Below are positions 31,807 to 48,574 of a DNA stretch of 64,000 bases, piece by piece. Under the pieces are notes generated by a model. That model searched no databases, had not been told where the DNA came from, and saw nothing but the letters and a program-made list of their open reading frames with translations. How positions within the stretch are numbered: the stretch's first letter is position 1; each line of letters begins with the position of its first letter. Location of the stretch: assembly GCF_014395785.1 (NCBI RefSeq), contig NZ_CP060713.1, forward strand, positions 1,330,501-1,394,500, written 5' to 3'. This DNA is from Nocardioides mesophilus (lineage in GTDB: Bacteria; Actinomycetota; Actinomycetes; Propionibacteriales; Nocardioidaceae). The position numbers and the translations under genes are program-made.

Positions 31807-32074
31807 GGTCAGCCAATATACGCAAGCGCACGTGCGGCGGCCCGGCGCACCGCACTCGCCGATCCCGTCAGAGACCGACGGCAGATCCAGGCATGGGCGC
31901 TACGCATTCAACACCCGATATCATGTCCTGGGTTCGAAATACGACATTTCGCGGCGAGTGTTGCCCGGGACCGGGCTGTGGAGATACCTTGCCTAGCGCC
32001 CCGATTGGCATGTTCTGAGTCTCACGGGGTACTTGGAGCAATACCCTGATGGATCCCCATTCGTCAGGCTCACC
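31807..32074. other. upstream region of the polysaccharide locus
   Basis: This 268-bp stretch holds the divergent promoters of the discoidin-like gene and the sugar transferase. I see only short frames and no clear RNA gene; a TTG at 32033 is an alternative transferase start. Confidence 0.35.
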
Positions 32075-33598
32075 ATGGATGTGCCGGGGGGCGCACCCTC
32101 GAGGGGGCAGTTTGTTGTGTTGCAGGAGCGAAGGGGCGCCCGCGCAAGTGAAGTCACTCCTTCCTCGACGGTCCCGCGGGAGCAGGCTGAGGTCCTGACC
32201 ACCGTCGCACCCGAGGTCGGTCCGCTCGCGGCGGAGACAGTCGCCCGCCGCAACCCCGAACCGTGGTGGCTGCGCTCTGGTGTGCGCCCGTATCTCTTCG
32301 CTGCCGACCTGCTGGCCTTCGGCCTCGCCGGCCTTCTCGCGCCACGAACCGACCCGGCCCTGTCACTGGTATGGGCCGTGAGCCTGATCGCCTTCGCTGT
32401 CGCCGGTCTCTACCGGTCCCGGCTGACGTTCTCGCTGCTGGACGACATCCCCGCGCTCTTCACGGGGATCGCGGTCGGGTTCACCGCGCGGCTCTCCATC
32501 CCTGCCGTCTTCGACCGCGTGGAACCGGCGCGCTCACTCATCGCCCACGCGCTGGTACTGCTCGTCTGCGTCTCGGCATTCCGCTCAGCCGCCTACTTCG
32601 CGGTCCGGCTGTCTCGGCGCCAAGGCAGGATCCAGCACCAGACGGTCATCCTCGGCGCGGGCGCCCTCGGCGCCCACCTGGCGCGGATCCTCATCGACCA
32701 TCCCAAGTACGGACTCGCTCCTGTCGGCTTCATCGACTCGAATCCGTCGCCGCGGCTCCGTCCCCTGCTCCCCGTTCCTGTGCTCGGGCCTTATGAGCAG
32801 CTGGACTCGCTGATTCGGGAGCACTCGGTGCGCGACGTCATCGTCGCCTTCGGTGAGAAACGAGAGTCCGAGCTGGTGGACCTGCTCCGCACCTGCGACC
32901 GGCTGCATGTCCAGGTGTTCATCGTGCCGAGGCTTTACGAGCTGCACAACGTCAGCCGCGGCACCGACGACGTGCGAGGAATCCCGCTCGTTCGTACCCG
33001 GGAACCGGCGTTCCGACGCCCCCGTTGGCGGACGAAGCGGCTGTTCGATCTCGTGGTGGCCGCCTCAGCGCTCCTGGTGCTCTCACCCGTGCTCGCGCTC
33101 TGCGCCCTGGCGGTTCGCCGTGAAGGTGGACCAGGCGTCATCTTCCGGCAGGAGCGGGTCGGCCTGGACGGGCGACCTTTCGACCTGCTCAAGTTCCGCT
33201 CGCTGAGCCCCGTCAACGAGCAGGAGTCCCAGACCCAGTGGAACATCCAGAACGACCACCGACTGGGCCCCGTCGGGCGCTTCCTGCGGAGGACCTCCCT
33301 GGACGAGCTTCCGCAGCTGTGGAACATCGTCAAGGGCGACATGAGCCTGGTGGGCCCTCGACCGGAGCGACCTTTCTTCGTGGCCCAGTTCGCGGATCGG
33401 ATCCCTCGTTACGTCGCCCGGCACCGCGTGCCGGCAGGTTTGACCGGCTGGGCCCAGGCACACGGACTGCGTGGTGACACCTCCATCGAGGAACGTGCCC
33501 GCTTCGACAACTACTACATCGAGAACTGGTCGCTGTGGCTCGATGTCAAGATCCTGGTCCGGACCGTGGGACAGGTCCTCAGACGAGAGGGCGGCTGA
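32075..33598 (+). CDS. initiating sugar transferase (polyprenyl-P hexose-1-P transferase)
   Basis: About 507 residues. The N-terminal half has hydrophobic membrane segments ([24 protein letters not shown]) and a Rossmann-like domain ([20 protein letters not shown]). The C-terminal bacterial sugar transferase domain has [60 protein letters not shown] and [10 protein letters not shown]. It transfers sugar-1-phosphate to undecaprenyl phosphate to start repeat-unit assembly. Start is uncertain (ATG 32075; TTG 32033). Confidence 0.9.
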
Positions 33599-33767
33599 CC
33601 CCTCGGTTGGTCCGACCATGGACTTTACCTAGCGGCCGCTCAACTCGGCTCGACCGACGACCGACTCTCCCTGTGAAGGACGCGTTGCCATGAGGTGACG
33701 CCTGGCCGACTCGACACGCAGCTGTGCGTCGAGTCGCCGCCTTCGTGACCTTGGGAGGGGTCATCGA

Positions 33768-35189
33768 ATGTCTGGTGCAGATCGACTCGTTCCGGCACGC
33801 CCGAAGCATCGCGCTCCAAGGCGTCTGACGCCGGACGGGCAGCGGGACCTGACCCGGCGTTCGGTCCTCGGCGGTGCGGTCGCCGGCGCCGGCCTCGTGC
33901 TGCCGGCCCTGGCCCCCGCTGCCTTCGGAGGACAGCGCAAGCCCTCGGGCAAGACGCCCAGCCTCGCAGTGATGCCAGCGTCCCAGGCGGACTCGGTGGT
34001 CAACATGGTGGGCGTCAACACCCACGTCAACTGGCGAACGACTGTCTATGCCCAGGACCAGCGGGTGATGGACCTGGTCCGCGATCTCGGAGTGCGGCAC
34101 GTCAGGGATCGCATCACCAAGCTGGCGGCCACCCGCGCCGCGTTCTCGGAACTGGCGAAGTCGGGTGTCAAGGTGCAGGGCGTCTGTGGTGCGCTGGGTG
34201 ATCCCCAGTCCATGAGCGAGGTCATGTCGGAGGTCGTCGCCGGCTACAGCGACCCTTTCTCGGTCTTCTCCGGCTTCGAGGGCCTCAACGAGCCGAACAA
34301 CGACGCGGTGCCCTGGGTGGACGAGACCCGGGCCAAGCTGCGGGACCTCCGCATCGAGCGAGACCTCCGTGGCCTCAACCGCATCCCGGTCATCGGGCCG
34401 GCGCTGGCTCGGGTGAACGGAGGCGGGGTCGAGGGCGACACGACCGAGGGCCAGTCGACTGCCCTCGGCGACCTGACCGACGTGCTGGACCTCGGCAACG
34501 TGCACGTGTACCCCCGGGTGCAGACACCGAGTGCGGACATCGATCGCTTCGTCGCCTACCAGCGGCTCGTGTGCGGGAACAAGCCGATCGTGTGCAGCGA
34601 AGGCGGCTACTTCACCGCCATGGACTACGTGGGTGGCGCTTGGCCGACTCCGGTGGACGTCGTGGGCACGTACCTCCCCCGGATGGTGATGGAGCACTGG
34701 CTGCGCGGCACGACGCGCTTCTTCGCCTATGAGCTGATGGACCGGTACGACGCCACGAACTCCGACAGGCTTTCCAGCTTCGGGCTCGTCGGTGTTCCGT
34801 CCGAGGACCCGGCCGCCCCGTGGACCAAGAAGCCCGGCTACCGGGCGCTGAAGAACTTGTTGTCGATCATGGCGGACCCTGGGGGGTCTCACAAGGTCGC
34901 CGGCATCCCGATGACAGTGACCGGAGGGACGGATCTGCGAAAGGGCCTCTTCGCCAAGCGGGACGGCTCTCGTTACCTCGCGGTGTGGCGAGACGTCTCC
35001 TGCTACGACGCGCTCAACCGGACGCTCACCCCGGTCCAGGCGACGACAGCCACCCTCACGTTCGACACCCGCCGCACCGTGTCCGTGTACAGCCCCACTG
35101 TGTCGGCCACCCCGGTCGCGAGCTACGCCGCAGCCACGAGCGTCAAGCTCTCCGTCGGCGGCGAGCTTCTCATCGCGCGGATCGGGTGA
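33768..35189 (+). CDS. Tat-exported TIM-barrel glycoside-hydrolase-like protein
   Basis: 473 residues with a twin-arginine signal (DLTRRSVLGGAVAGAGLV). Catalytic-type motifs are FEGLNEPNNDAV (acid/base Glu after Asn in a beta-4 strand) and IVCSEGGYFTAM (nucleophile Glu), as in clan GH-A. A second, related gene is at 40713-42197. Both are next to surface-polysaccharide genes, so a role in trimming or processing the polymer is likely but unproven. Specific GH family is not assignable. Confidence 0.75.
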   Translation: MSGADRLVPARPKHRAPRRLTPDGQRDLTRRSVLGGAVAGAGLVLPALAPAAFGGQRKPSGKTPSLAVMPASQADSVVNMVGVNTHVNWRTTVYAQDQRVMDLVRDLGVRHVRDRITKLAATRAAFSELAKSGVKVQGVCGALGDPQSMSEVMSEVVAGYSDPFSVFSGFEGLNEPNNDAVPWVDETRAKLRDLRIERDLRGLNRIPVIGPALARVNGGGVEGDTTEGQSTALGDLTDVLDLGNVHVYPRVQTPSADIDRFVAYQRLVCGNKPIVCSEGGYFTAMDYVGGAWPTPVDVVGTYLPRMVMEHWLRGTTRFFAYELMDRYDATNSDRLSSFGLVGVPSEDPAAPWTKKPGYRALKNLLSIMADPGGSHKVAGIPMTVTGGTDLRKGLFAKRDGSRYLAVWRDVSCYDALNRTLTPVQATTATLTFDTRRTVSVYSPTVSATPVASYAAATSVKLSVGGELLIARIG

Positions 35190-35987
35190 TCACGAGGGCT
35201 GCGGACTCGTCCGACGGTGTCGCTCTGCTCCACTCCCTTTCGTGGCGTAGGCAATCAGCAGGCCCACGATGAAGCCCAGGAAGGCCCCCAGTCCCGCGTC
35301 CCAGACCGGGCGCGGCTGGATCGGCTGCTCCGGAGGCTGGGCCAGCTGGAGCGGTTGTCCGCCCGAGGAGTCGCTGGGCGTCGACGCCAGGAAGACCTGA
35401 CCCTCGAGGTCGGTCGCGCGCGTCGTGAGCGCGGCAAGCGTCGTCCGTGCGCCGATCTTGGCGTCAGCAGGGACCCCGCGGAGGCTCTTCTGGATGCTGG
35501 TGATCTGGCCACGCAGCTCGACAAGCTGCTGCTCCATGAGGTCCTGGGCGGCGGTCACCTGCTCCGCGCGGTAGTCGAGGTAGCTCTGGGCGAAGGCGTT
35601 CGCGACAGCCGCCGCCTGCTCGCCCGTCGGCATCTGGCTCGTGACGATGAGAACGCTGGTTCCGTCGGAGGGGATCACAGTCGTGGCGTCGACCAGGTCC
35701 TGTCCCTGAGCGTCGAAGTTGACCGAGTCGACGACCTTCGCCACGATGCGGTCCGACAGCACCACTTCCGCCTGCGTGGCGACCTGCTCCGCGTCCAACG
35801 ACGCCTCTGGGACCGATGAAGGTCCTGGCACTGCGAGCACCTTGGCGTCGGCTTCGTAGAGGCGCTGCTGGGTTTGCGAGAAAGCCAGCCCCGCACCCAG
35901 TCCGAGCACGGAGCAGACGATCAGGACGAGCCACCTGCGCCGTAGAACGGCGAGGTGGTCACCAACCGTGACGAGATCTTGGTCCAT
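35190..35987 (-). CDS. Wzz-type polysaccharide chain-length determinant
   Basis: 265 residues with two membrane segments (WLVLIVCSVLGLGAGLAF and LGAFLGFIVGLLIAYA) flanking a coiled periplasm-type region (LMEQQLVELRGQITSIQKSL). It lacks a kinase domain, unlike the BY-kinase at 22800, so it is a pure Wzz. Its stop codon is adjacent to the stop of the opposite-strand GH gene (palindromic TGATCA). Confidence 0.8.
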   Translation of the reverse strand: MDQDLVTVGDHLAVLRRRWLVLIVCSVLGLGAGLAFSQTQQRLYEADAKVLAVPGPSSVPEASLDAEQVATQAEVVLSDRIVAKVVDSVNFDAQGQDLVDATTVIPSDGTSVLIVTSQMPTGEQAAAVANAFAQSYLDYRAEQVTAAQDLMEQQLVELRGQITSIQKSLRGVPADAKIGARTTLAALTTRATDLEGQVFLASTPSDSSGGQPLQLAQPPEQPIQPRPVWDAGLGAFLGFIVGLLIAYATKGSGAERHRRTSPQPS

Positions 35988-36142
35988 GGTCTTCCGGAAC
36001 GAAGTAGCAGGTACGAGGGACGGGGGCGCACATCGGACCTGCGCCGCCCTAGACTACTGGTCGATGCAGTCCCACGGCGCGAGGGGCGGGGCCCGACCCC
36101 GATCCGCGCCGCGGTGGCGCGGCAGAAGCGAAAGGGAGACGA

Positions 36143-37438
36143 GTGCGGCTCTTCCTTCCGGTCCTCTTCGCTGCGCTTCCCCTCCAGTGGTTCGTCGTGC
36201 CGGTCCCAGGGATCGGCGGCCAGAGGCTCCACATCCTCGTGATGGTGCTCTTCGCGGCGCTCATGCTGGTCCGCACCCGGTCACGTGCCTTCCTGCCGCT
36301 GCTCGGGGTGGCCCGGCCGTTCTTGGTGGCCATGTCTTTCCTGGCCGCCGTGTGGTTCGCCACGAACATCTACAACGGGACCTCACCACGGCCCGCCGTG
36401 GAGGAAGCCGTTCAGCTGGTGGTCTTCGTGACCTTGGGAACGGCGGTCTTCCAGGCCGCGCGCGACCTCGCCGGCGGGGCGGGGCTCGCACTGCGGTGGT
36501 GCGGCCCGATCTGCAACCTGAGCCTGGTCACGGCACTGTTCGCGTCCATGAAGATCAATGCCGTCAACCCCCTGTCGGTGCTCGGCGAGACGATCCGCAG
36601 CGGCGATCCGAACGTCCTGCAGCGAGAGCTGTACAAGTCCAGCTTCGTGGGGTTCGGCCTCGACGACGCGGTGGTGCGATCACAGCTTCGTCATGAGGTG
36701 TTCGGCGCGGTGCTGGTGGCGACCGCGGTGTCCTTCGCCGCCGTACGGCTGTGCCCGTTGCGGTCCCGGTCGGCAGCCATCCTGTTCTGGGCCTCCGCTT
36801 CGCTCACCGCGGTCATGTTGCTCTTCTCGCTCAGTCGTTCAGTGCTGATCGCCGCTCTCCTGTGGCCGACGCTGGTGGCCGCCCGAGCAATCCAGTCCGG
36901 CCGCCTCACGCCGGGCCTGGTCGCCTCCGCCGCGGGTGCGGTTCTCGGGGTGATGGCCCTGGCAGCGTCCGGTTTCCTCAGCGTGCTTTGGATCCGGTTC
37001 ACCCAGGACACCTCCTCCTACCAGAGCCGGGAGGGCCTGCTGAAGGCTGCCTTCCGCAACATCCGTTCGCACTGGGTCACCGGAGGGGTCAACACCATCG
37101 GAGAGAGCTCGCACAACTTCGTCCTCGACTCATGGCTGCGCAGTGGGGTGTTCGCCGCGCTCGCTGCGGTCACCGTGCTCGTGCTCCTGGTCGGGCTGTT
37201 CCTGGGGACGGTCGGGCGCCTGAACCTCGAGCCCGAGTGGATGGTCCCGGTGATGGCGCTGCTGGCGCTGGTGCTGGTGCGCATGTTCACTGCCGGCGGC
37301 GGGGCGTTTCCCCCGGTCGAGTGGGTCGCACTGGCGGTGGTCGCCGGGTTCATGACGTTCCGCGTCCACGGCCCTCTGCCAGCCGTTCCGGAGCTCGCAG
37401 CCGACCATCGCCAGCCTGAGTCCCGGGCGGTGTCCTGA
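36143..37438 (+). CDS. O-antigen polymerase/ligase-like membrane protein (Wzy type)
   Basis: 431 residues with about ten membrane segments (LFLPVLFAALPLQWFVV, LVAMSFLAAVWFA, AAILFWASASLTAVMLLF, LVASAAGAVLGVMALAAS, FAALAAVTVLVLLVGLFLG). The large loop with SREGLLKAAFRNIRSHWVTG and GESSHNFVLDSWL matches the O-antigen ligase/polymerase loop. GTG start with GGGAGA just upstream. The stop overlaps the next ATG (TGATG), so it is co-transcribed with the GT4 genes and sulfotransferase. Confidence 0.8.
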   Translation: MRLFLPVLFAALPLQWFVVPVPGIGGQRLHILVMVLFAALMLVRTRSRAFLPLLGVARPFLVAMSFLAAVWFATNIYNGTSPRPAVEEAVQLVVFVTLGTAVFQAARDLAGGAGLALRWCGPICNLSLVTALFASMKINAVNPLSVLGETIRSGDPNVLQRELYKSSFVGFGLDDAVVRSQLRHEVFGAVLVATAVSFAAVRLCPLRSRSAAILFWASASLTAVMLLFSLSRSVLIAALLWPTLVAARAIQSGRLTPGLVASAAGAVLGVMALAASGFLSVLWIRFTQDTSSYQSREGLLKAAFRNIRSHWVTGGVNTIGESSHNFVLDSWLRSGVFAALAAVTVLVLLVGLFLGTVGRLNLEPEWMVPVMALLALVLVRMFTAGGGAFPPVEWVALAVVAGFMTFRVHGPLPAVPELAADHRQPESRAVS

Positions 37439-38616
37439 TGCGCATCCTGCTGGCTCACAGCCAGCACTCGGCGCGCGGTGGCGCAGACAAGGTGATGGAG
37501 CAGGAGCAGGAGCTTCTCCGCGAGGCCGGACACGAGGCAAGGCAGTACGTCGCAGCCGACGCAGGATCCACCGGACAACCCGCGTGGCGACAGGCGGCTG
37601 ATGCAGTGTGGAACAACGCTGCCTACCGGGCCTTGCGCCAAGAGATCCGGAGCTTCCGGCCGGACGTCCTGCACGTCCACACCCCGTTCCCGGTGCTCTC
37701 CCCTGCTGCGTTCCGGGCCGCCTCTGCGGAGGGGATCCCCGCTGTCACCACGGTGCACAGCTATCGGTACTCGTGCATCGCAGGGACCCTGCGGCGTGAC
37801 GGCCGGATCTGCGAAGACTGCGTCGGGTCCCAGTGGAAGACCAGCGGCCTGCGCCACGGCTGCTACCACGGTCGGGCGGCCAGCGCGGCGATGACCACGT
37901 CGCTGGTGCTGCACCACCGCTCGGGAACGTTCAAGAACGACGTGAGCCGGTTCCTGACCCTGACCGAGTTCGCACGGGCGGTGCTGGTCCGGGACGGCAT
38001 CCCTGCCGATCGTGTCGTCGTGAAGCCGAACTTCGTCGAGGACCCCGGCCACCCGGTCGACTACGCCCGTCGCGATCCGATCGCGCTCTTCGCGGGACGC
38101 CTCGTGCCGGAGAAGGGCATCACGACCTTGCTCGAGGCGTGGCGGGGGGCTCGCGGATCTGGTGCGCGACTGGTCATCGTCGGTGACGGCCCGCTGCGAG
38201 AGGTTGTCGAGAGGGCCGCCGGCGATGACCCCAGCATCGACTTCAGGGGGTGGCAGACGCCCGAGGAGGTCGGAGCGCTGCAGGCCCGTTCGCGTCTGAC
38301 CGTGGTCTGCTCGGAGTGGTACGAAGGGCAGCCGCTGGTGCTGCTCGACGCGCTCGCACACGGAACTCCGCTGGTCGTGAGCGACCTCGACAACCTCAGC
38401 AGCTCGGTGCTGGCAGCAGGCGCAGGGCTCAGCTTCCGGACCGGCGACCCGGGCTCTCTGGGCGAGGCGCTCAGCGCCGTCCTCGGCGATCCCGGGCACG
38501 CTGCTGCGATGGGGTCCCGAGCGCGTGACCTCTACCTGCGTGCACACACACCCTCCGCGATCCTGGCCGACCTCGAACGGATCTATGGCGAGGTCATCGC
38601 GGAGTCACACCCATGA
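37438..38616 (+). CDS. GT4-family glycosyltransferase
   Basis: 392 residues, two Rossmann-like halves. N-terminal RILLAHSQHSARGGADKVM and VLHVHTPFPVLSP; C-terminal IALFAGRLVPEKGITTLLEA, LVIVGDGPLRE and the EWYEGQPLVLLDALAHGTP donor-binding motif (Glu-x7-Glu-like). The Cys set near residues 113-143 (CIAGTLRRDGRICEDCVG) is seen in some actinobacterial GT4 enzymes. Overlaps by 1 base the Wzy stop and by 4 bases the next gene. Confidence 0.9.
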   Translation: MRILLAHSQHSARGGADKVMEQEQELLREAGHEARQYVAADAGSTGQPAWRQAADAVWNNAAYRALRQEIRSFRPDVLHVHTPFPVLSPAAFRAASAEGIPAVTTVHSYRYSCIAGTLRRDGRICEDCVGSQWKTSGLRHGCYHGRAASAAMTTSLVLHHRSGTFKNDVSRFLTLTEFARAVLVRDGIPADRVVVKPNFVEDPGHPVDYARRDPIALFAGRLVPEKGITTLLEAWRGARGSGARLVIVGDGPLREVVERAAGDDPSIDFRGWQTPEEVGALQARSRLTVVCSEWYEGQPLVLLDALAHGTPLVVSDLDNLSSSVLAAGAGLSFRTGDPGSLGEALSAVLGDPGHAAAMGSRARDLYLRAHTPSAILADLERIYGEVIAESHP

Positions 38617-39727
38617 GGGTCCTGCACGTCGTCGAGATCACCCACGGCGGAGTGCTCACCCTCGTTCGCACGTTCGCCGAGCTCCAGCAGCGAGCCGGGA
38701 TCGACGTCCACCTGCTCGTTCCGCCGGGGGTGGACGGGCTCACGGGGACCGTCCACCACTGGCGTCCTGTCCGGAACCAGCCCTGGAGCATGGTGCGCGC
38801 GCGGGGGACCTCCGCCATCTCGTGAGCGCCTTGCAGCCGGACGTGGTGCATCTGCACTCCTTCTTCCCAGGTGTGCTGGGGCGGATGAGGTCGCTTCCCG
38901 GCGATCCGCGGGTGGTCTACCAACCGCACAGCTGGGCCTTCGACGCGGTCTCCAACGAAGCCCTTGCCCGAGCCGTCGCCCGTTGGGAGCGACACGCGGC
39001 CACCGGCACCGACGTCACGGTCACCAACTGCCAGGAGGAGCTCGCCGAGGCCCGCACCCGACGGGTCGACGGCAACGCGATGGTCATCGGACTCCCGGTC
39101 GACGTCGACTTCTTCCGGCCCGGAGACCCGTCCGCGGCCCGGGCCGCCCTCGGCATCGATGCCGCCCGGGTGATCACCTGCGTAGGCCGGCTGAGTCGCC
39201 AGAAGAACCAGGAGCAGCTGGCAGCTGCGTGGGAGGCCGCCCCGATCCCGGACACCGTCCTGGCACTGGTCGGCCCCGGGAGCCAGGACGCCGTGCGGGC
39301 AGCAGCCCCGACGACGGCAGATCGGAGCCTGCGGCTCGTCGGTCCGACCGACGACGTACGCACGTGGCTCCAGGCCAGCGACATCGCCGTGCTTCCCTCG
39401 CTGTACGAGGGGCAGTCGGTGAGCATGGCCGAGGCCCTGTCGTGCGGGGTCCCCGTCGTGATGACGCAGGTGAACGGCGCGTCGGAGATGGTGGCACCCG
39501 TTGGAGAGGCACCGGCGGGCGCCGTCGTGCCGGTGGGCGCCATGCGGGAGCTGCTCGCGGAGTGCGCCACCCGGCTCGCTGACCCACCCCGGATGGCAGC
39601 GGAGGGCGTGGCCGCTCGCCGGCGCGCCGTGACGCACTTCCGGGCCGAGACAGTGATGGCACGGCTGCTCGAGGCGTACACCCCTCATCCCGACCCCGTC
39701 CTCCAGCGAGAGAGCCAGCGCCCATGA
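38613..39727 (+). pseudogene. GT4-family glycosyltransferase, broken by a 1-base frameshift
   Basis: The N-terminal frame (MRVLHVVEITHGGVLTLVRT) ends at 38825. The continuing frame (DLRHLVSALQPDVVHLHSFF, then ITCVGRLSRQKNQEQLAAAW, LPSLYEGQSVSMAEALSCG) runs to 39727. They join at a run of five G at 38803-38807; one extra base gives a continuous protein. Both flanking overlaps (ATGA with the upstream GT4 and with the sulfotransferase) are kept, so the gene is well placed and the break may be a sequencing indel. Confidence 0.85.
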
Positions 39728-40650
39728 GCCAACCAGTACCGACCTTCGTCGTGGGTGGCGCGGCCCGCGCCGGCAGCACCGCCGTCATCGAGTCGCTGCG
39801 TCGGCACCCGGACATCTTTCTCACCTCGCCGAAGGAACCGCACTACCTGGCGCTCGGCGGCACGACCCCCGCCTTCACCGGCCCCGACGATGCCGCCACC
39901 ATCAACAGGTTGGCCGTGACGGACGAGGCTTCCTACCTCTCACTGTTCGCGGAGGGCGAGAACCACACGGCGATCGGTGAGGGCTCGGTGTCGACGCTCT
40001 ACTACCACGACGTCGCCGGTCCAAGGCTCCACGCCCTCAACCCTGAGGCGCGCATCGTGCTCGTGCTGCGCGAGCCGGTGGCTCGTGCCTTCTCGAGCTT
40101 CCAGTACCTCAGCAACCGGGGCACCGAGCCGGAGTCGGACTTCCTCACCGCGGTCGACCGAGAGACCACCCGGATCCAGGCCGGCTGGCACCACCTGTGG
40201 CACTACACGTCGATGAGCCGGTACGCCGACAGCGTGCGGCACCTGCGTGGTCTGTTCGGCCCGGACCAGGTCGGTGTCTGGTGGTACGACGACCTCTCCG
40301 GCGACCCGGTGCGCACGCTGACCGAGATCCAGGCCTTCGTCGGGGTGACGCCTTTACCGCCCGACCAGATCGCCAGCGAGCGCGTCAACGCGTCGGGCAG
40401 TCCCCGTAGCGCCCTCCTGCAGTCGACGCTGCAGCTCGTCAGCCGCACCCCCGCCCTGCGCACGGCCGGCAAGGCCCTCGTTCCCTTCGCAGTCCGCGAG
40501 AGGATTCGCCGGGGCAACCTGGTGGTCAACGAAGTGACACCGCAGGTCCGGCAGCGGCTCGCACCTCTCTTCGCCGACGACCTGCGCAGTCTTCAGCGGG
40601 AGCTCGGCAGGCCGGTGCCACCAGAGTGGCTCAGCGGCTCGTCAGGCTGA
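39724..40650 (+). CDS. sulfotransferase, polysaccharide-locus type
   Basis: 308 residues. The 5'-PAPS phosphosulfate loop is FVVGGAARAGSTAVIESLRR near the start; the 3'-phosphate binding region is VLVLREPVARAFSSFQYL (Arg and Ser, as in the family). It transfers sulfate from PAPS, here presumably to a sugar of the locus polymer (inference from operon overlap with GT4 genes). PAPS-supply genes are not in the window. Confidence 0.85.
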   Translation: MSQPVPTFVVGGAARAGSTAVIESLRRHPDIFLTSPKEPHYLALGGTTPAFTGPDDAATINRLAVTDEASYLSLFAEGENHTAIGEGSVSTLYYHDVAGPRLHALNPEARIVLVLREPVARAFSSFQYLSNRGTEPESDFLTAVDRETTRIQAGWHHLWHYTSMSRYADSVRHLRGLFGPDQVGVWWYDDLSGDPVRTLTEIQAFVGVTPLPPDQIASERVNASGSPRSALLQSTLQLVSRTPALRTAGKALVPFAVRERIRRGNLVVNEVTPQVRQRLAPLFADDLRSLQRELGRPVPPEWLSGSSG

Positions 40651-40712
40651 ACAGTGCCCGGGCTCCCCATCCGCGGGCGGACGACGTCGGGTGGGTCGTG
40701 CAGCAGAACGTG

Positions 40713-42197
40713 TCAGCGGAGCGGCAGGCTGGTCACTTCCGCAGAGACCTCCACGGTGCGGGGACCGCGGCGGTCAGTCACGGTGACGGCCACGGGCGCC
40801 ACCTCGATGGGCGTCCGGGTGAACGGGTCCCACACGCTCAGGTCCCGGAAGAGGAAGACGGTAGCGCTCCCGTTGCGCCTGGCAGCGACCACGAACGCGA
40901 CGTCGTCCGCTGCAGCCTCCACGCCCAGCCTGACCGGATCCGGCACGTACGACGGTCCGTCGGGCTCGTCCAGGGCATCGAGCAGGCGGGTCAGCTTCCC
41001 CACAGCCTGCTTGGGGGTCCAGGTCAAGGGATCGCCCGTCTCCACCCGCCACAGGCCGAAATTCGACTCGGCCACGTCCTTCGGACCCGGGTCGGGGTCG
41101 TCGAGGCACTCGTACCAGGCGCACGGGATGCCGCGGTCGGCCAGCTGCAGGACCGCCCGGTCGATGTAGGTGGCCGTCGCGCCCTCGGACGTCGGCCGGT
41201 GGCCGATGCTCTCCTCGCCGCTGCGATAGGTGCCTCCCGCATTGGTGGGCTGGTACAAGGCGTTGTGGTAGCCGGTCTCGGTCATGTAGAGGGGCGTGTC
41301 AGCACCGAAGGCGTCCAGGAGATGCTGCAGGCGACGGTCGATGTCAGTGAGCGGTGGCTCACCCGCGGGATAGAAATGGACTCCGGCCCGGTCCTGCCAG
41401 TCCCCGACCCCGGCGTCGGCGAGCTGGTGGTAGTGCTCCGCCCCACCGGACGGCTCAGCGTCGTCGTAGGAGGCAGCGGCCGCCTGGTCGTGCAAAGACG
41501 GTCCCAGCACCAGCACCTGGGACAGCGCTTCCGATTCCTGAACGCCCTCCCAGATCGCCTTCTGGTGGGGTGCGGTGTAGGCCGTCGCCCAGTCGAGCGG
41601 CACCGGGAAGCTGCCGCCCCGGTTGTGGTTCGGCTCGTTGATGCCTTCAATCCCGTAACAGACGTCCGGACAGGTGGCAGCGATCTGCCGCACGATGGCC
41701 GCGGTGGTGTCCACGGACTGGTCGGTGGGCTTGTCATTCGCCTCGGGCACGATCGTCATGAGCCACTTCACGCCATACCTCCGGCTTGCCGCGACAGCTT
41801 TCTGACAGCCGGCGTTCTGGGGGTTGTAGAGCCCTCTGAAGAGGGTGACGCCCATGGTCGCCAGCCTCTCCATCCAGGCCTCGACGTCGCTGTAGACGCT
41901 GTCGGCGAACGCAGGGTGGGCGGCGACCGCCAAATTCGTGCGGACGTCCATCGCAGAGAGCGGATGGACCTGACGCACCGGACCGAGCGCGTTGGCACGC
42001 CTGCCGGGACCTGCGGAGGAGTCGTCGTCGGTGAGGTAGCGTCCGACTCCGGCCGCCACGGCGATAAGCCCGCCGGCGGAGATGACCGTGAGGGCGGACC
42101 GGCGCGACAGCCCCCCGAGCTCGTCGCGGGCAGGATCGCTGCGCCGGTGCCGTGACCCCCCGTTCGACGGCGTCGGATCAGACTCGGCTCCGCCCAT
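40713..42197 (-). CDS. second Tat-exported TIM-barrel glycoside-hydrolase-like protein
   Basis: 494 residues with a twin-arginine signal (LSRRSALTVISAGGLIAVAA). Motifs YGIEGINEPNHNRGG and PLYMTETGYHNALY carry the two Glu of clan GH-A and are similar to those in the gene at 33768. The ATG at 42197 follows a TACGCT hexamer by seven bases, so translation may be leaderless. Longer frames to 42323 are not needed. Confidence 0.75.
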   Translation of the reverse strand: MGGAESDPTPSNGGSRHRRSDPARDELGGLSRRSALTVISAGGLIAVAAGVGRYLTDDDSSAGPGRRANALGPVRQVHPLSAMDVRTNLAVAAHPAFADSVYSDVEAWMERLATMGVTLFRGLYNPQNAGCQKAVAASRRYGVKWLMTIVPEANDKPTDQSVDTTAAIVRQIAATCPDVCYGIEGINEPNHNRGGSFPVPLDWATAYTAPHQKAIWEGVQESEALSQVLVLGPSLHDQAAAASYDDAEPSGGAEHYHQLADAGVGDWQDRAGVHFYPAGEPPLTDIDRRLQHLLDAFGADTPLYMTETGYHNALYQPTNAGGTYRSGEESIGHRPTSEGATATYIDRAVLQLADRGIPCAWYECLDDPDPGPKDVAESNFGLWRVETGDPLTWTPKQAVGKLTRLLDALDEPDGPSYVPDPVRLGVEAAADDVAFVVAARRNGSATVFLFRDLSVWDPFTRTPIEVAPVAVTVTDRRGPRTVEVSAEVTSLPLR

Positions 42198-42202
42198 GCA
42201 CT

Positions 42203-42237
42203 TGAGCGTACCGTCGGGTTCGAACCCGGGGCGCTCA
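42203..42237. promoter_or_regulatory. promoter with palindrome and strong hairpin
   Basis: On the minus strand, TACGCT (42205-42210 complement) is the likely -10 for the GH gene. Just upstream lies a perfect 14-bp palindrome CGGGTTCGAACCCG (42215-42228), nested in an outer stem of seven pairs (42203-42209 with 42231-42237, one G-T). It could be a repressor operator between -10 and -35. It resembles a tRNA T-arm only superficially. Confidence 0.45.
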
Positions 42238-42395
42238 CCAGGTTCTCGACAGTGGCGAGGACGGACGCTGACCGTGTGGATGCGACGGGTAGCATGCGGA
42301 ACCAGGCTCTCAACCGGCGTCACGCCTTTTGACCGGGATTGATGCGCTTACCGTTGACCGTGGACTCGAGGCGGAGAGATGCACCCAGTCCCTGA

Positions 42396-43811
42396 GTGGC
42401 TGTTCGTACGACGCGTGCACGACGGGGCGACCCTCGACGGCAACATTCCGTGAGCCGGCTCGTGAACGACGCCGGGCGGCCCACCCGCCCGCGGCTGTCG
42501 GTGCTCGGAGCGCTGGTCTGGTACGCCCTGTCCTATGGCGGCTCCGTGCTGGGATACCTGGCCATCAATGCGTTCGCCGCTCGCCTGCTCGATGACTCCT
42601 TCGGCTACTTCGTCGTCGCCATCTCCACGGCGACCGCCCTGGGACAGCTGGGGTTGATCGGCGCCCATCGCGGCGGTCTTCGAGAGGCTGCGCGTCTCGA
42701 GACGGGGGACGTCGAGGGGCTGAGGGACCTCCGCCGGGGCGTGCGCGCGGTCTCCCGGGTGACCCTGCCGGTCACGAGCCTCCTCACCGCGGCCGTGACA
42801 TTCGGCGTGATGAACGACTCCGACCCGGCGTACCGCGGGCTGGTGGCCGTCCTGACCGGGATCCTCGTCTGGTTCGGTGGTCAGCAGAAGCTCTGGGCCA
42901 GCTACTCGCGTGGCTTCGGCAACGTCAGGTTGGCCAGCCTCCTGGAAGGCCGATCAGGGGGCGCGCTGGTGTCCCTGTGCCAAGGAGTGCTGGTCGGCGT
43001 CTGCCTGATGTTCGTGCCCGAGCTCGGCCTGCCGGGAGCACTCGCTGCCATGGCACTCGGGTTCGCCCTCCCTGTCTTCATCGCGAAGCGGCGGGTGGCT
43101 CGTGTCTGGCGCGGTGTTCGCGCAGAGGGTTCAGTGCTCGCGGACGTCCGGCTGGTCGTCTCTCGTCATTGGCGCTTCGCCGTGAACATGCTGGGAACCT
43201 CCGTCAACGGAGCCGCCGACGTGTGGGTCGCGGGGGTGGTCCTCACCGGAAGCGGCGTCGCCCTCTTCGGGGCAGCGCAGCGTCTCTCCCTGCTGCTGGT
43301 GATCCCGCTCGCTGCCGTGGGAGTCATCTTCAGCCCGGTGATCTCCCGTCTCTACGGGAAGGACGATCCGAATCTGGAGCGGCTGCTGCGTACCGGCGCC
43401 AGCCTCGCGGCTGCAGCCACAGCGGTGCTGTGGCTGCCCATGCTCCTGCTGCCCGGTCCGCTCCTCGCTGCCATCTACGGCGACTTCTTCCGTGACGCCG
43501 CACCCCTCCTCCTGCTGCTGACGCTGGGGAGCGTCAGCAACGTGCTCACGGGGATGTGCGGGATCGCCCTGACCATGTCCCGGCATGAGGCAGTGGTGGC
43601 GAAGGTGCAGGTCTTCTCGGCCGCGGTGCGCGTGGGGGCAGGGTTCGTCGCCGCCTGGCAGTTCGGCGCTGTCGGCCTCGCCGTCTGCACCGCGACCATC
43701 TCAACGGTCTCCTCGTTCACCCTGTGGGTCCTGGCTCGCAGGCGCATGGGACTCAGCACTCATCTGACCCTGCGCCCCGCGTTCACCTTGATGCGGAGGA
43801 CCGAGGGCTGA
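42396..43811 (+). CDS. oligosaccharide flippase (Wzx/MOP type)
   Basis: About 471 residues with 12-14 membrane segments (ALVWYALSYGGSVLGYLAI, LVSLCQGVLVGVCLMFV, LSLLLVIPLAAVGVIFSPV, TAVLWLPMLLLPGPLLA). MOP-superfamily pattern; it would flip the lipid-linked repeat. The start is unclear: GTG at 42396 or at 42450, neither with a strong Shine-Dalgarno. Confidence 0.85.
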   Translation: MAVRTTRARRGDPRRQHSVSRLVNDAGRPTRPRLSVLGALVWYALSYGGSVLGYLAINAFAARLLDDSFGYFVVAISTATALGQLGLIGAHRGGLREAARLETGDVEGLRDLRRGVRAVSRVTLPVTSLLTAAVTFGVMNDSDPAYRGLVAVLTGILVWFGGQQKLWASYSRGFGNVRLASLLEGRSGGALVSLCQGVLVGVCLMFVPELGLPGALAAMALGFALPVFIAKRRVARVWRGVRAEGSVLADVRLVVSRHWRFAVNMLGTSVNGAADVWVAGVVLTGSGVALFGAAQRLSLLLVIPLAAVGVIFSPVISRLYGKDDPNLERLLRTGASLAAAATAVLWLPMLLLPGPLLAAIYGDFFRDAAPLLLLLTLGSVSNVLTGMCGIALTMSRHEAVVAKVQVFSAAVRVGAGFVAAWQFGAVGLAVCTATISTVSSFTLWVLARRRMGLSTHLTLRPAFTLMRRTEG

Positions 43812-43862
43812 GCGACGGCCACCCTGCAGGCGCGGGGACGCCTCGTGCGACGGCGACCGTCG

Positions 43863-45218
43863 CTAGGCCCAGGGAAGCCTCGGGCCTGCGGACCCCGCTT
43901 CGTAGTCCTGGAGCACCGGGGCTCCGGCCTTCCAGGCGGCCACTATCGGGTCGACGATGCGCCAGCATTGCTCGGCCTCGTCGTCGCGCACCGTGAACGT
44001 CGGATCGCCCGCGAGGACGTCTCGCAGCATCCGGGCGGAGGCAGGCATCTGCTGACGAGGCCGGGTCACCTCGAGGGCGGCGATCCCGACTTCGGGCAAC
44101 CCCCCTACCCCCGAGACAGGCAGCTGGAAGGTGACAGTGTCCGGGGCCATTCCCAGGCGCAGCACCATGGGAACCGCGGCGATGGCGCGCCCCGCCGTCG
44201 GGCGGAAGTGCAGCGTGACCGTCCGGGCAGGTTGACCCAGGGCCTTGCCGGTCCTCAGCAGGAAGGGCACGCCGGTCCATCGTGGCGAGTCGACCGTCAG
44301 CTCGAGTGCGGCGTAGGTCTCGGTGTTCCTGGAGAGATCCACCCCTGCCTCGTCGATGTAGTCGGGCAGGTCGATGCCCCGCACTCCGCCGGACGTGTAA
44401 CGCCCTCGTGCTGTCCTGACTGCGACCTCGCCGGCATCCAGGGAGCAGACACGGCGTAGCGCCGCGACCTTGGCGTCGCGCAGCGACTGCTCGTCCAGAG
44501 CATCCGGTGGCTCCATCGCCACGAGGGACAGCAGCTGGAGCAAGTGACTCTGGACCATGTCCTTGAGCGCGCCGGTCCGGTCGAAGAAGTCGGCCCGGCC
44601 TGCCAGGCCGGCTGTCTCCTCCCACCTGATCTCCACCGACTCGACGTACTCCCTGTTCCAGACGGTCTCGAAGAGGGGGCTCCCCAGCCTCAGGGCGAGC
44701 AGGTCCTGGACCATCTGGTGGTAGAGGAAGTGGTCGATGCGATAGATCTCCCGCTCCGGCGCGACGTCATGCAGGAGACGGCTCAGCTCACGGGCTGACG
44801 CCAGGTCCTCGCCGAACGGCTTCTCGACGACGACCCGGCTGCCGGCACGCAGTCCTCCCGCCTTCAAGGCGCTCAGGGCCTTCGGATAGACCGACGGCGG
44901 CAGCGCGAGGTAGGCGATCACGGGGCCGTCCTCGAGCAAGGGACCAAGGTCGGGTCGGCGCTCGAGGTCGAGCTGGTGATAGTCGAGCCGCCCCACCAGC
45001 TCTTCCCGAGCGTGCGGGGGAACGTGAGGGGCCTGCGATTCCAGCCGGGCGGTTGCGAGATCCCTGTAGCTGTCGCTGGTCAACGGCTCACGTCCGACCC
45101 CGACGACGCGGAGGTCCACCGGCAGATGGCCCAGGTCGAGCAGGTGAGCCAACGCGGGAAGCAGGTGGCGGGTCGCCAGATCACCTGCGGCGCCCAGCAC
45201 GACGATCCGTCGGATCAC
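43863..45218 (-). CDS. zwf: glucose-6-phosphate dehydrogenase family protein
   Basis: 451 residues. NADP-binding VVLGAAGDLATRHLLPAL, then VVVEKPFGEDLASA and the active-site motif RIDHFLYHQMVQ (catalytic His-Asp pattern, variant of RIDHYLGK). It should oxidise glucose-6-phosphate to 6-phosphogluconolactone. The GTG at 45218 follows an AGGGGA site. It lies inside the polysaccharide locus on the opposite strand and is short for the family, so a sugar-specific paralogue is possible. Confidence 0.75.
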   Translation of the reverse strand: MIRRIVVLGAAGDLATRHLLPALAHLLDLGHLPVDLRVVGVGREPLTSDSYRDLATARLESQAPHVPPHAREELVGRLDYHQLDLERRPDLGPLLEDGPVIAYLALPPSVYPKALSALKAGGLRAGSRVVVEKPFGEDLASARELSRLLHDVAPEREIYRIDHFLYHQMVQDLLALRLGSPLFETVWNREYVESVEIRWEETAGLAGRADFFDRTGALKDMVQSHLLQLLSLVAMEPPDALDEQSLRDAKVAALRRVCSLDAGEVAVRTARGRYTSGGVRGIDLPDYIDEAGVDLSRNTETYAALELTVDSPRWTGVPFLLRTGKALGQPARTVTLHFRPTAGRAIAAVPMVLRLGMAPDTVTFQLPVSGVGGLPEVGIAALEVTRPRQQMPASARMLRDVLAGDPTFTVRDDEAEQCWRIVDPIVAAWKAGAPVLQDYEAGSAGPRLPWA

Positions 45219-45369
45219 TTCACATCCCCTGTCGGCGCTCCGGACTGGAGAAGACCGGTTCGAAGTCAGGCCCGACACCGCTTCGCACTCGCATCCGGCC
45301 GGTCGAACGTCGGACTAACCGGTCCTCCTGTGTCATTATGCTTTCTCGTCCACAGAAGAGGAGCGTCAC

Positions 45370-46092
45370 GTGTCTGTCGACGACGCGCCCTTCGCTGACG
45401 CGATCATTCTCGCGGCGGGAAGCAGCACCCGGATGCGCGGGCCGGACAAGCTGCTGCTGGAGTTCGGCGGCCTGCCGCTGATCGCCTGGACCCTCAGGGC
45501 TGCGGCGCGTGCCTCGAACGTCCGCAACATCATCGTCGTTGCGCACGCGGACCGGGCTTCGGCGTTGCGGGACGAGCCGTGGATCCGCGAGGTGGAGGCG
45601 ACTGTGGTCGTGGGCGGCGGACGTCGCCAGGACTCTGTGGCGTCAGGCGTCGAGGCAAGCCAGGCGGAGGTGGTGCTCATCCATGACGGCGCACGTCCCC
45701 TGGTCAACCCGGAGCTGTTCGACTCCGTCGCTCTGGCTGCTCGCGCACACGGAGCAGCCGTTCCGGTCGTCGCCGTCCCGGAAAGCATGCGCCGGCTGGT
45801 GGACGGCAAGATCGTGGAAATCGTCGACAAGACGGGACTGTTCCGCTCCCAGACGCCACACGGAGCTCGGCGCGAGCTGTTGCTCGAGGCGTACGCGCAC
45901 CTGGACCCACGGGGACCGGAGACGTTCATCGACGAGACGTCGTTGGTGCAGTCCGCCGGCTTCGTGGTGTCAACCGTGGTCGGTGACCCGACGAACCTCA
46001 AGCTGACCCTGCCGGGTGATGAGAAGCTGGCGTTCGCGATCCTCGAAGGGCGGGCGCGCGCCGATGAAGTCCCGCCGTCCGTCTCCGTTTGA
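45370..46092 (+). CDS. IspD/TarI-type cytidylyltransferase
   Basis: 240 residues. The nucleotide-binding motif AIILAAGSSTRMRGPDKLLLEF and the IHDGARPLVNPELF motif are those of 2-C-methylerythritol-4-P / ribitol-5-P cytidylyltransferases. It overlaps the next gene's possible start, a CDP-glycerol transferase-like protein, so a CDP-alditol (TarI-like) role is more likely than the isoprenoid one. GTG start with AGGAG upstream. Confidence 0.8.
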   Translation: MSVDDAPFADAIILAAGSSTRMRGPDKLLLEFGGLPLIAWTLRAAARASNVRNIIVVAHADRASALRDEPWIREVEATVVVGGGRRQDSVASGVEASQAEVVLIHDGARPLVNPELFDSVALAARAHGAAVPVVAVPESMRRLVDGKIVEIVDKTGLFRSQTPHGARRELLLEAYAHLDPRGPETFIDETSLVQSAGFVVSTVVGDPTNLKLTLPGDEKLAFAILEGRARADEVPPSVSV

Positions 46093-46106
46093 GCGACCCG
46101 GCTGCC

Positions 46107-47291
46107 ATGCGGCGTCCTCGAGAAGGTGCGGGCTTGAACATCGTCGACGCCAAGCTCGCAGTGCTGCGTACCTGCCTGAAGTACGCGCCGGCGCTCAACC
46201 ATGCGGTCGTCAGCGGGGCGCCTGACGACGAGGGCAACAGCGTGGAGGTCGTGCGTGCGCTTGCTCGTCACATGCGCGTGTACTGGCTGGTGAGCGACGA
46301 CCCGGCGCAGCTTCGCTGGCTGATCGCCGACGCGGAGAAGGCGGAGACGGTGCGCTGCCTCCCGAAGGAGTCGCGGCGGGCCTACTGGGCCTACCTGACC
46401 GCGAGCCTGGTGTTCTTCACCCACGGCTTGTACGGGTCCCCCAAGCCGCCGCCGCACAAGACGTTCGTCAACCTGTGGCATGGCGACGGGCCGAAGCGAC
46501 GCACCAACTTCGCCCAGATCCGGTCCACGATGGTGGTGAGTGGCACCCACCTCTGGGGCAGTCGCCGGGCCGCCAGCTTCGGGGTCGAGCCGAAGAACGT
46601 GATCATCTCGGGGAACCCTCGGGTCGATCAGTTCGCCCGCCCGGTGGGCGATGCTTCGTTGACCGCCCTCGGCATCCGTCCCGAAGCCCCGTTCATCCTG
46701 TGGCTGCCCACGTACCGCTCCACGGAGTACAAGGGTCGTCGCCTGGGCGAGGTGCGCGACTGGTCGGATGCGGAAGAGATCTCTCGCTCGGCACGAGCGC
46801 GAGCGTTGCTCGCCCGGGTCGCCGAGCTCGCCGAACGGTCCGGCGTCACGCTGGCGGTCAAGCCGCACCATCTCGACGCAGACAAGTTCGCCGACCTCGG
46901 GATGAGGGTCATCACGAACGCGGATCTTCGCGAGAGCCAGGTCAACCTCTACCAGCTCCTGGCCCGGGCCCACGGACTCATCACCGACTACAGCAGCGTG
47001 TGGACCGACTTCTTGGCCACCGATCGCCCCATCGGCTTCTACTGCCCGGACATCGACGACTACACGGCCTCGAGAGGCCTCAACGTCGACGACTACCCGA
47101 GCCTGCTGCCCGGTCCTCTCCTCGAGACTCCGGAGGACTTCGACCGGTTCTTGCATGACTGCAAGGACGAGCCCGCCGCGTCACGTGCGAAGCGACGACG
47201 CTCGATCGAGATGATCGGCGCGCAGATGTCCCCGGGAGCGACGAATCGGCTGCTGCGCGCCCTGGGCATCTCTCCCGACGCCAACGGATAG
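46107..47291 (+). CDS. CDP-glycerol glycerophosphotransferase-like protein
   Basis: About 394 residues of the TagF/TagB family: NLWHGDGPKRR (cf. WHG-x-P of the family), VSGTHLWGSRRAASFGVEP, ISGNPRVDQF, VTLAVKPHHLD, HGLITDYSSVWTDFLAT and IGFYCPDIDDY. It transfers alditol phosphate from a CDP-alditol to a polymer or lipid acceptor. The start could be TTG 46089, ATG 46107 or TTG 46134, the last behind GAGAAGG. The gene is followed directly by a strong hairpin terminator. Confidence 0.85.
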   Translation: MRRPREGAGLNIVDAKLAVLRTCLKYAPALNHAVVSGAPDDEGNSVEVVRALARHMRVYWLVSDDPAQLRWLIADAEKAETVRCLPKESRRAYWAYLTASLVFFTHGLYGSPKPPPHKTFVNLWHGDGPKRRTNFAQIRSTMVVSGTHLWGSRRAASFGVEPKNVIISGNPRVDQFARPVGDASLTALGIRPEAPFILWLPTYRSTEYKGRRLGEVRDWSDAEEISRSARARALLARVAELAERSGVTLAVKPHHLDADKFADLGMRVITNADLRESQVNLYQLLARAHGLITDYSSVWTDFLATDRPIGFYCPDIDDYTASRGLNVDDYPSLLPGPLLETPEDFDRFLHDCKDEPAASRAKRRRSIEMIGAQMSPGATNRLLRALGISPDANG

Positions 47292-47349: not shown

Positions 47350-47646
47350 TCAGATCGCGACGGCGACCTCGGCGACGACACCCTTCTGGGCGACGACGGC
47401 CTTGTCGACGACGTCGGCCTTCGGCGCCAGCGTGCGCAGCGTCCACTGCCCCGGCGCGGCGAAGAACCGGAAGTGGCCGGTGGCCGAGGTCGGCACCTCG
47501 GCGGTGAACTCGCCGGTCCGGTCCAGCAGCCGCACGTAGGCGTTGCCGACGGGCTGCTCACCGCGCGTGACGACGCCCTGGATCACCGCCTCCTTGGCGA
47601 CGTCGACCCCGTCGAGGGAGAGACCGCCCGCGGTCGCCCCGCACAT
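47350..47646 (-). CDS. DUF1416 protein (SseC-like)
   Basis: 98 residues: MCGATAGGLSLDGVD opening with a conserved Cys, then a beta-sandwich pattern (GVVTRGEQPVGNAYVRLLD, FRFFAAPGQWTLR). This small protein is conserved beside SseA-type sulfurtransferases in actinobacteria. Its ATG overlaps the SseA stop by one base (TGATG). Confidence 0.85.
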   Translation of the reverse strand: MCGATAGGLSLDGVDVAKEAVIQGVVTRGEQPVGNAYVRLLDRTGEFTAEVPTSATGHFRFFAAPGQWTLRTLAPKADVVDKAVVAQKGVVAEVAVAI

Positions 47647-48494: not shown

Positions 48495-48574
48495 GGTGGT
48501 TCCTTCCTGATGCCGTTTCGCGGCGGTTTCGATGTCTGGTGAACGGGGGTGGGTGACGCGCGACGGCGCCGTGG

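Follow-up and report, generated by a model that had tools for sequence, protein, structure and literature searches.

The Psl locus of Pseudomonas is a Wzx/Wzy-type exopolysaccharide locus with a PslG hydrolase and, to our knowledge, it holds neither a sulfotransferase nor a TagF gene. As far as we know, transferases of the TagF family take CDP-alditols as donors. The enzymes that make CDP-glycerol belong to a family other than IspD, and in S. aureus the reductase TarJ is a medium-chain dehydrogenase/reductase (MDR). Here, we describe a polysaccharide locus of Nocardioides mesophilus in which a sulfotransferase of the 3'-phosphoadenosine 5'-phosphosulfate (PAPS) type lies with a TagF-type transferase, an IspD-family cytidylyltransferase (IspD2) and a divergent paralogue of glucose-6-phosphate dehydrogenase (G6PD). 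The latter is called G6PD' below. The window, that is, the whole stretch of DNA analysed, is 64,000 nucleotides long and covers NZ_CP060713.1 1330501-1394500 (G000:C1:1330501-1394500), in a genome of 4.49 Mb assembled as a single contig. The locus is like Psl in that the best structural match of one of its hydrolases is PslG.

The papers compared below are cited from sections of their text. The capsule of Cobetia marina KMM 1449 has the repeat ->4)-a-L-Rhap2S-(1->3)-b-D-Manp6PGro-(1-> and, like the polymer that we propose, joins sulfate and glycerol phosphate in one repeat (PMC11766843). It differs in coming from a Gammaproteobacterium with an ABC-transporter capsule, and its glycerol phosphate is attributed to WcbQ, a protein resembling lipoteichoic acid synthase that uses phosphatidylglycerol, and not to a CDP-alditol/TagF route (PMC11766843). 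An earlier note on this DNA knew of no well-described actinomycete polymer with both groups. This agrees with the literature matches listed, in which subscription journals are thinly covered; the combination as such has its precedent in Cobetia.

In actinomycetes, the wps-1 cluster of Actinoplanes missouriensis is required for normal sporangium formation, and sulfation of its polysaccharide is predicted and, according to its authors, awaits verification (PMC13390465). Compared by description only, it resembles the locus of N. mesophilus in being a Wzx/Wzy cluster of an actinomycete and in encoding Wzz, sulfotransferases (two of them) and a glycoside hydrolase, but its hydrolase is termed GH26 and the sections cited describe no TagF- or IspD-type gene (PMC13390465). 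Pontimonas salivibrio is also an actinobacterium with PAPS-dependent sulfotransferases, which are presumed to modify the cell wall; TagB and TagD are missing, a polyrhamnose core is proposed and, unlike here, no link to TagF is described in the sections cited (PMC6106888). Sulfated polysaccharides of actinobacteria are predicted, not verified, in both of these papers.

C. jejuni HS5.18/HS5.17 and S. pneumoniae Mnp1/Mnp2 are pairs for CDP-alditols (CDP-6-glucitol and CDP-mannitol) that combine PF01128 with PF01370; in C. jejuni, cytidylylation comes first and the reductase then acts on CDP-6-fructose (PMC10918830). CDP-ribitol synthases, from H. influenzae and from S. aureus, are cited in the same paper. 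As in these pairs, a PF01128 cytidylyltransferase is co-encoded in N. mesophilus with a putative NADPH-dependent oxidoreductase for a surface polymer; unlike HS5.17, which belongs to the short-chain dehydrogenase/reductase (SDR) superfamily (PF01370; PMC10918830), the partner here is of the G6PD fold, and IspD2 is not TarI-like. Neither a G6PD-type partner of a CDP-alditol enzyme nor a CDP-alditol/TagF route joined to sulfation was found among the literature matches listed, which cover few subscription journals. If sulfation from PAPS and transfer from a CDP-alditol are combined in one locus, a small set of genes would encode a polymer that is anionic in two ways and, if the reading is true, the first actinobacterial exopolysaccharide to carry sulfate together with an alditol phosphate. 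With a G6PD-fold partner for an IspD-family enzyme, CDP-alditol synthesis would have recruited an oxidoreductase independently once more.

A sulfotransferase and putative alditol-phosphate genes in one polysaccharide locus

The island at 32033-47291 holds 12 called genes, all scanned with Pfam, with starts set by a simple codon-usage caller; its gene content, families, motifs, pairing and recurrence are reported as observed. The genes encode, in order, an initiating polyprenyl glycosylphosphotransferase, a PslG-like hydrolase, Wzz (minus strand), Wzy, two family 4 glycosyltransferases (GT4 a and GT4 b), the sulfotransferase, a second hydrolase (minus strand), Wzx, G6PD' (minus strand), IspD2 and TagF. 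By their Pfam matches, the gene types Wzz, GT4 (twice), sulfotransferase, IspD family and TagF named in the earlier note are all present. Additional to its list are two PslG-like hydrolases (33768-35189, plus strand, and 40713-42212, minus strand) and the G6PD paralogue. The features on which the argument turns are the following:

39724-40650, plus strand: PAPS-type sulfotransferase (PF13469, E 9.4e-14, 52.6 bits, cut-off 27)
43863-45278, minus strand: divergent G6PD paralogue, G6PD' (PF02781, E 3.8e-70; RIDHFLYH replaces RIDHYLGK)
45279-45369, no strand: 91-bp region between the divergent G6PD' and IspD2 genes, from their coordinates (arrangement found in 6/6 genomes)
45370-46092, plus strand: IspD2, IspD-family cytidylyltransferase, not TarI-like (PF01128, E 2.4e-45; own tree branch)
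46089-47291, plus strand: TagF/TarF-type CDP-alditol phosphotransferase (PF04464, E 5.9e-35; motifs WHG..P, KPH and TDYSS)

The sulfotransferase matched PDB 3rnl, titled just 'Sulfotransferase', over residues 5-296 of 308 (E 6.8e-44), and heparan sulfate 3-O-sulfotransferases gave weaker PDB matches. It contains GGAARAGSTAV and REPVARAFS, which we take to be the PAPS-site motifs, a strict pattern for the second fitting 3/7 of the sulfotransferases compared. PAPS supply is plausible because the genome encodes an adenosine 5'-phosphosulfate (APS) kinase, the domain of which lies at the end of a 787-aa open reading frame (ORF) beside a TauE-type gene. Elsewhere in the same genome, a 728-aa ORF (L058:7043-9226) is a second sulfotransferase-family match.

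The three TagF motifs are also found in four of the five TagF relatives compared, that of L064 being without an exact TDYSS. On the TarF, TarL and TarB equivalog models, TagF stayed far under the cut-off (best, 32.8 of 550 bits). The N. mesophilus genome has no second PF04464 gene, and no TagGH-type ABC export system was detected among the 12 island genes, the rest of the genome not having been searched for one.

Recurrence of the sulfotransferase with TagF

Of the 29 TagF loci compared, three have orthologues of both the sulfotransferase and TagF in a single cluster: L062, from the metagenome-assembled genome (MAG) UBA4001, L064, from a Nocardioides MAG, and L065, from Nocardioides ferulae. 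The two genes lie 4.8, 2.4 and 2.4 kb apart, respectively, among PslG-like and flippase/polymerase-type genes, and the three sulfotransferases are 48-49% identical to that of the window. In L062, TagF, GT4b, the sulfotransferase, Wzx and GT4a form a same-strand run. About 0.4 kb off lies a gene for an IspD-SDR fusion (1340-2644) whose match to the fusion of N. ferulae starts at residue 58 and which is interrupted in its N-terminal part; it may be broken or misassembled. Proteins matching thymidylate kinases and APH-family kinases are encoded between Wzx and TagF of this locus (L062:7584-9970). In L065, an IspD-SDR fusion of the TarI type comes after the sulfotransferase and a GT4 gene; this makes N. 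ferulae the named species for which a sulfated polymer with ribitol phosphate can be predicted most clearly.

Samples comprised 197 family genomes and, for the searches described further on, 341 family and 394 class genomes, these two overlapping; several comparison genomes are MAGs with short contigs. Among the 197, TagF (at least 40% identity) was found in 10 and the sulfotransferase (at least 46%) in 13. Both were present in four (N. mesophilus itself, G030, G032 and G051) against 0.66 expected, with a hypergeometric P of 0.002 that ignores phylogeny and depends on identity cut-offs chosen after seeing gaps in the lists. All five genomes found with a TagF at least 57% identical to that of the window (its own, G032, G298, G030 and G051) also hold a sulfotransferase-bearing polysaccharide cluster. 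The TagF contig of G030 ends with another sulfotransferase gene, 12 kb from TagF, next to which is a Wzz/kinase-like gene, 10.5 kb from TagF. Seen from the sulfotransferase, 12 of 13 loci carry at least one homologue of the window's initiating transferase, GT4, Wzx or Wzy, the locus of G094 carrying none. This indicates that genes for sulfated polysaccharides form a widespread set, which only sometimes includes TagF.

IspD2 is an IspD-family protein apart from TarI

On the IspD model, IspD2 reached 166.2 bits against a cut-off of 181.3, and on the ribitol model 76 bits against one of 166; among PDB chains its best IspD match reached 112 bits and its best TarI-type match 57 bits. As a control, the IspD-SDR fusion of N. 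ferulae had TarI chains at the top, its scores being 185 bits for the IspD model and 159.5 bits (cut-off 166) for the ribitol model. Because this fusion passes it, the IspD cut-off fails to separate the functions. The sub-cut-off score of IspD2 is therefore no argument against its IspD membership. The ribitol-model score does set IspD2 apart from the TarI-type fusion, and a TarI identity was rejected on its low ribitol-model and TarI-chain scores with the fusion as control.

In a tree of the six IspD2 proteins, five IspD-SDR fusions and six other IspD-family proteins, the IspD2 proteins formed a separate branch, with a support of 0.999 between them and the rest. They branched apart from the IspDs of G206 and G268, which adjoin CarD- and IspF-type genes. 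Twenty-two residues are invariant in the IspD2 clade (in five or six members, the G032 protein being truncated) and missing from the other 11 proteins; in the numbering of the window protein they include D26 (vs P/N), S139 (vs T/A) and H164 (vs Q/T). What the earlier note called an "IspD/TarI-like" enzyme is thus of the IspD family by its Pfam match, and is not TarI-like by the ribitol model, the PDB scores and the tree. Its "glycerol- or ribitol-phosphate" finds no support here either, the cytidylyltransferase not being TarI-like and its partner being of the G6PD type instead of an SDR/epimerase-type reductase. CDP-glycerol was judged an unlikely donor, since CDP-glycerol enzymes are of another family.

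IspD2 was found at E <= 1e-40 in just 4/341 family genomes, so it is not the usual IspD of the family. In the class sample, 5/394 genomes matched at E <= 1e-30, namely N. mesophilus, G298 (74% identity) and three genomes at 37-40% in which the gene lies beside CarD-like genes. The ispD gene stands beside a CarD gene in G206, G268 and G200. Next to the CarD gene of N. mesophilus (L057:9055-10920), one ORF is weakly IspD-like and the other has no Pfam match.

Other PF01128 genes of N. mesophilus are one strong match, at genome position 1177989, and three weak ones. The 1177989 gene scored 161.3 bits on the IspD model, less than IspD2, and is preceded by sorbitol phosphotransferase system (PTS) genes (PF03608, PF07663, PF03612 and PF03829; EII-GUT, PTSIIA_gutA) and a DRL-type oxidoreductase gene. 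Given this score and this position, the gene is not assigned as the housekeeping ispD. The stretch L057:4409-8741 (G000:C1:1174409-1178741) holds the sorbitol PTS, the DRL-type oxidoreductase and then the IspD-family gene; this set is a possible second source of a CDP-polyol.

G6PD' and its pairing with IspD2

G6PD' is the lowest-scoring of the four G6PDs of the genome, the other three of which keep RIDH[YF]LGK. At the position of the Zwf motif RIDHYLGKE, the window protein has RIDHFLYHQ, and all six G6PD' proteins have RxDH[FL]L[YH]H. The lysine of RIDHYLGK is implicated in glucose 6-phosphate binding and catalysis in the sections cited of PMC6165198 and PMC12429737. G6PD' retains GAAGDLA (GxxGDLA), EKPFG (EKPxG) and the histidine of 'SHLLQ', and both GxxGDLA and the SHLLQ/GHLLL histidine are kept across the six proteins. 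This histidine presumably has a functional role in G6PD. On TIGR00871, G6PD' scored 365.5 bits, under the cut-off of 400.6.

IspD2 and G6PD' genes were adjacent and divergent in all six genomes found to have them, N. mesophilus, G032, G030, G298, the JPNG MAG (L066) and G074. In G074, the pair lies 345 kb from TagF among genes without a match to the window polysaccharide genes. A codon-level search for the altered motif in the 341 family and 394 class genomes matched 19 genomes. Four of these matches are G6PDs (in N. mesophilus, G032, G074 and G298), every one beside IspD2, and the remaining 15 are in reading frames that show no similarity to G6PD at E 1e-3. The search missed G030 because its pattern excluded the TTG codon, and may have missed further genomes in the same way.

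The cytidylyltransferase of other TagF loci goes with a different type of oxidoreductase: an SDR is fused to it in L049, L062, L065, L067, L069 and L070, and a PF01370 epimerase-type enzyme stands beside it in L063 and L078. The IspD and PF01370 pairs of these last two resemble the published pairs for CDP-6-glucitol and CDP-mannitol (PMC10918830). None of these eight loci has G6PD' within the compared stretch; the six G6PD' stretches have no relative of the L065 SDR or of the L063/L078 epimerases, and no MDR was found among the Pfam-scanned island genes. In L077, two epimerase-type genes lie 4-5 kb from an IspD-like gene; L068 has an IspD-like gene beside a CarD-like gene, and many other TagF loci have no IspD-like gene in view. 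From this replacement of the SDR or PF01370 reductase by G6PD' across TagF loci, we infer that G6PD' is a putative CDP-polyol oxidoreductase serving CDP-alditol synthesis.

Proposed pathway and alternative readings

Our preferred reading, to which we give about an even chance, is that this is a Wzx/Wzy exopolysaccharide locus whose lipid-linked repeat is both sulfated and modified with alditol phosphate, the donor coming from IspD2 and G6PD'. The initiating transferase would put a sugar-1-phosphate on the lipid carrier, and the two GT4 enzymes would lengthen the lipid-linked unit. In the cytoplasm, the sulfotransferase would sulfate one sugar from PAPS and TagF would transfer alditol phosphate from the CDP-alditol to the lipid-linked repeat. 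Wzx would flip the unit, Wzy polymerise it and Wzz set the length, while the PslG-like hydrolases could trim or release the polymer. The CDP-alditol would be made by IspD2 with G6PD', the latter as an NADP(H)-dependent oxidoreductase acting on a sugar phosphate or a CDP-sugar and filling the place of the SDR or PF01370 enzyme of other TagF loci. Speculatively, action of G6PD' after cytidylylation, like that of the C. jejuni reductase on CDP-6-fructose, could explain the remodelled phosphate site; the missing substrate-contacting lysine would be in keeping with a substrate that has its phosphate in the CDP ester already. Each of these reactions, the placing of both groups on one polymer and the identity of the alditol are predicted from sequence. 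More tentatively, and with clearly less confidence, we propose that IspD2-G6PD' is a new CDP-polyol synthase pair, that its CDP-alditol is neither ribitol- nor glycerol-based (for example, a hexitol or tetritol) and that TagF acts onto the sulfated repeat.

Several observations weigh against placing both groups on one polymer. Twelve of the 13 sulfotransferase-drawn loci (from 12 other genomes, two of them in G052) have no TagF in the compared stretch, so sulfation does not require TagF; the sole one with TagF is that of G051, and short contigs of 3.2-5.4 kb make up four of the remaining 12. From the other side, 26 of the 29 TagF loci have no sulfotransferase relative of the window type, and in G030, G032 and G298 TagF and a sulfotransferase cluster are on different contigs, those with TagF measuring just 5.5 kb in G032 and 3.7 kb in G298. 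Wzx matched in two places in G030, three in G032 and two in G298. The Wzx tree places the window Wzx with neither group, and the N. ferulae Wzx was too divergent for this tree. Finally, the two gene groups are not one operon because three mixed-strand genes lie between them. These genes might accordingly serve two neighbouring products, a sulfated Wzx/Wzy exopolysaccharide made by the genes from the initiating transferase to the sulfotransferase, and, apart from it, a polymer or glycolipid with alditol phosphate for which G6PD', IspD2, TagF and the adjacent Wzx would be responsible. We consider this possible, though doubtful. It agrees with the loci lacking TagF and with G030 and G032, where one Wzx adjoins the TagF module and another lies in the sulfotransferase cluster on a different contig. 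It does not agree well with N. mesophilus, in which the Wzx search matched only Wzx itself, so that there is a single Wzx of the family in this genome (likewise in G051 and G009), and in which DUF1416, rhodanese and DUF4395 genes occupy the far side of TagF; nor with L062, L064 and L065, where TagF sits between genes of the sulfotransferase cluster, in L062 within one same-strand run. The suggestion of the earlier note, a sulfated polymer with alditol phosphate, therefore draws on co-clustering in these three loci, the single Wzx, the single PF04464 gene and the Cobetia structure, and is weakened by the 12 loci without TagF.

Other alternatives concern the donor. Since no gene of the genome could be confidently assigned as the IspD of the methylerythritol phosphate (MEP) pathway, IspD2 might be that enzyme, placed here by a chance of history, with the TagF donor coming from elsewhere, for example through the 1177989 gene. 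IspD2 indeed scores above that gene on the IspD model, where both are under the cut-off, the two ORFs beside the CarD gene give weak or no IspD matches, and the 1177989 gene directly follows the EII-GUT, PTSIIA_gutA and DRL oxidoreductase genes. Against this stand the rarity of IspD2 in the family, its branching apart from the IspDs of G206 and G268 and its constant pairing with G6PD', and we hold an MEP role to be improbable. An ordinary or decaying glucose-6-phosphate dehydrogenase that provides NADPH or pentose phosphate, with no direct part in the CDP donor, would account for the GAAGDLA, EKPFG and 'SHLLQ' histidine kept in G6PD' and for its passing the NCBIfam Zwf cut-off of PRK12853 (434 of 428 bits). 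We judged an ordinary Zwf identity unlikely, given the lowest score of the four G6PDs, the linkage to IspD2 in 6/6 genomes and the replacement of GK of RIDHYLGK, with its substrate lysine, in all six proteins when it is intact in the other three G6PDs of the genome. It should be added that the absence of a reductase weighs little in two of the six G6PD' stretches, which are short contigs (3.7 and 5.5 kb). Nothing in the sequence fixes the reaction direction of G6PD', and oxidation is the usual direction of G6PD. The donor of TagF could then be a CDP-activated aldonate or lactone in place of an alditol. This is the least probable of these alternatives, as the known donors of the TagF family are CDP-alditols. 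In addition, the CDP-polyol pathways in section 23 of PMC10918830 are all NADPH-dependent reductions.

Other genes of the locus and its surroundings

The remaining genes of the island are the following:

32033-33598, plus strand: initiating polyprenyl glycosylphosphotransferase (PF02397, E 1.5e-66; TIGR03025, 413 bits, cut-off 295.55)
33768-35189, plus strand: PslG-like glycoside hydrolase (AlphaFold2 model, pLDDT 81; Foldseek PDB top three are PslG)
35190-35987, minus strand: Wzz-type chain-length protein without a kinase domain (PF02706, E 7.8e-7, 29.8 bits, cut-off 25.5)
36143-37438, plus strand: Wzy-type polymerase (9 predicted transmembrane segments; 41-50% homologues)
37438-38616, plus strand: GT4 glycosyltransferase a (PF00534/PF13692)
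38613-39727, plus strand: GT4 glycosyltransferase b (PF13692; start uncertain, longest ORF from 38525)
40713-42212, minus strand: second hydrolase, related to the first (25% identity in a nine-protein alignment; the ORF could start at 42323)
42396-43811, plus strand: Wzx-type flippase (8 transmembrane segments; MurJ E 0.002, below cut-off)

The ORF of the glycosylphosphotransferase opens at 32033 and its true start may be later, for example at 32282. GT4 b was split by the gene caller into 38613-38825 and 38822-39727. Neither hydrolase had a Pfam match. The best three Foldseek PDB matches of the first were PslG (4zn2, 9g17 and 5bx9, E 1e-16 to 1.9e-16, TMq 0.55-0.56), and by its predicted fold it is of the PslG type, this assignment being a fold match (TMq 0.56) of a model built from a nine-sequence alignment. 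It is probably secreted, to judge by eye from its Tat-like N-terminus. For the second hydrolase, an alternative plus-strand gene at 40626-42155 was rejected, as codon pattern and homology favoured the minus-strand ORF.

Wzy and Wzx, as named in the earlier note, had no family match over the cut-off. Their names are retained on topology, conserved position and homologues in related clusters, those of Wzy lying at 41-50% identity inside the sulfotransferase clusters L062, L121, L127 and L128. Another initiating glycosylphosphotransferase gene of the same genome (L056:12108-13547) lies about 3 kb from the APS kinase gene, which hints at a second polysaccharide locus by the PAPS genes.

The island is flanked by a BKACE gene (26778-27650) and by DUF1416 and rhodanese genes (47350-48578), which are also found near TagF or sulfotransferase loci of some relatives. 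Flank genes of the window (rhodanese, DUF1416, BKACE and others) recur in 7/50 compared stretches, two of them from one genome. This hints at a fixed site for variable polysaccharide genes and is silent on the product. About 8 kb upstream of the island, a protein with Wzz and AAA_31 (tyrosine-kinase-type) domains is encoded at 22800-24197, whereas the island Wzz is without a kinase domain. A lower-GC stretch at the start of the window contains IS21-type transposase genes (3440-5520) and an ISL3-type transposase gene (8517-9809).

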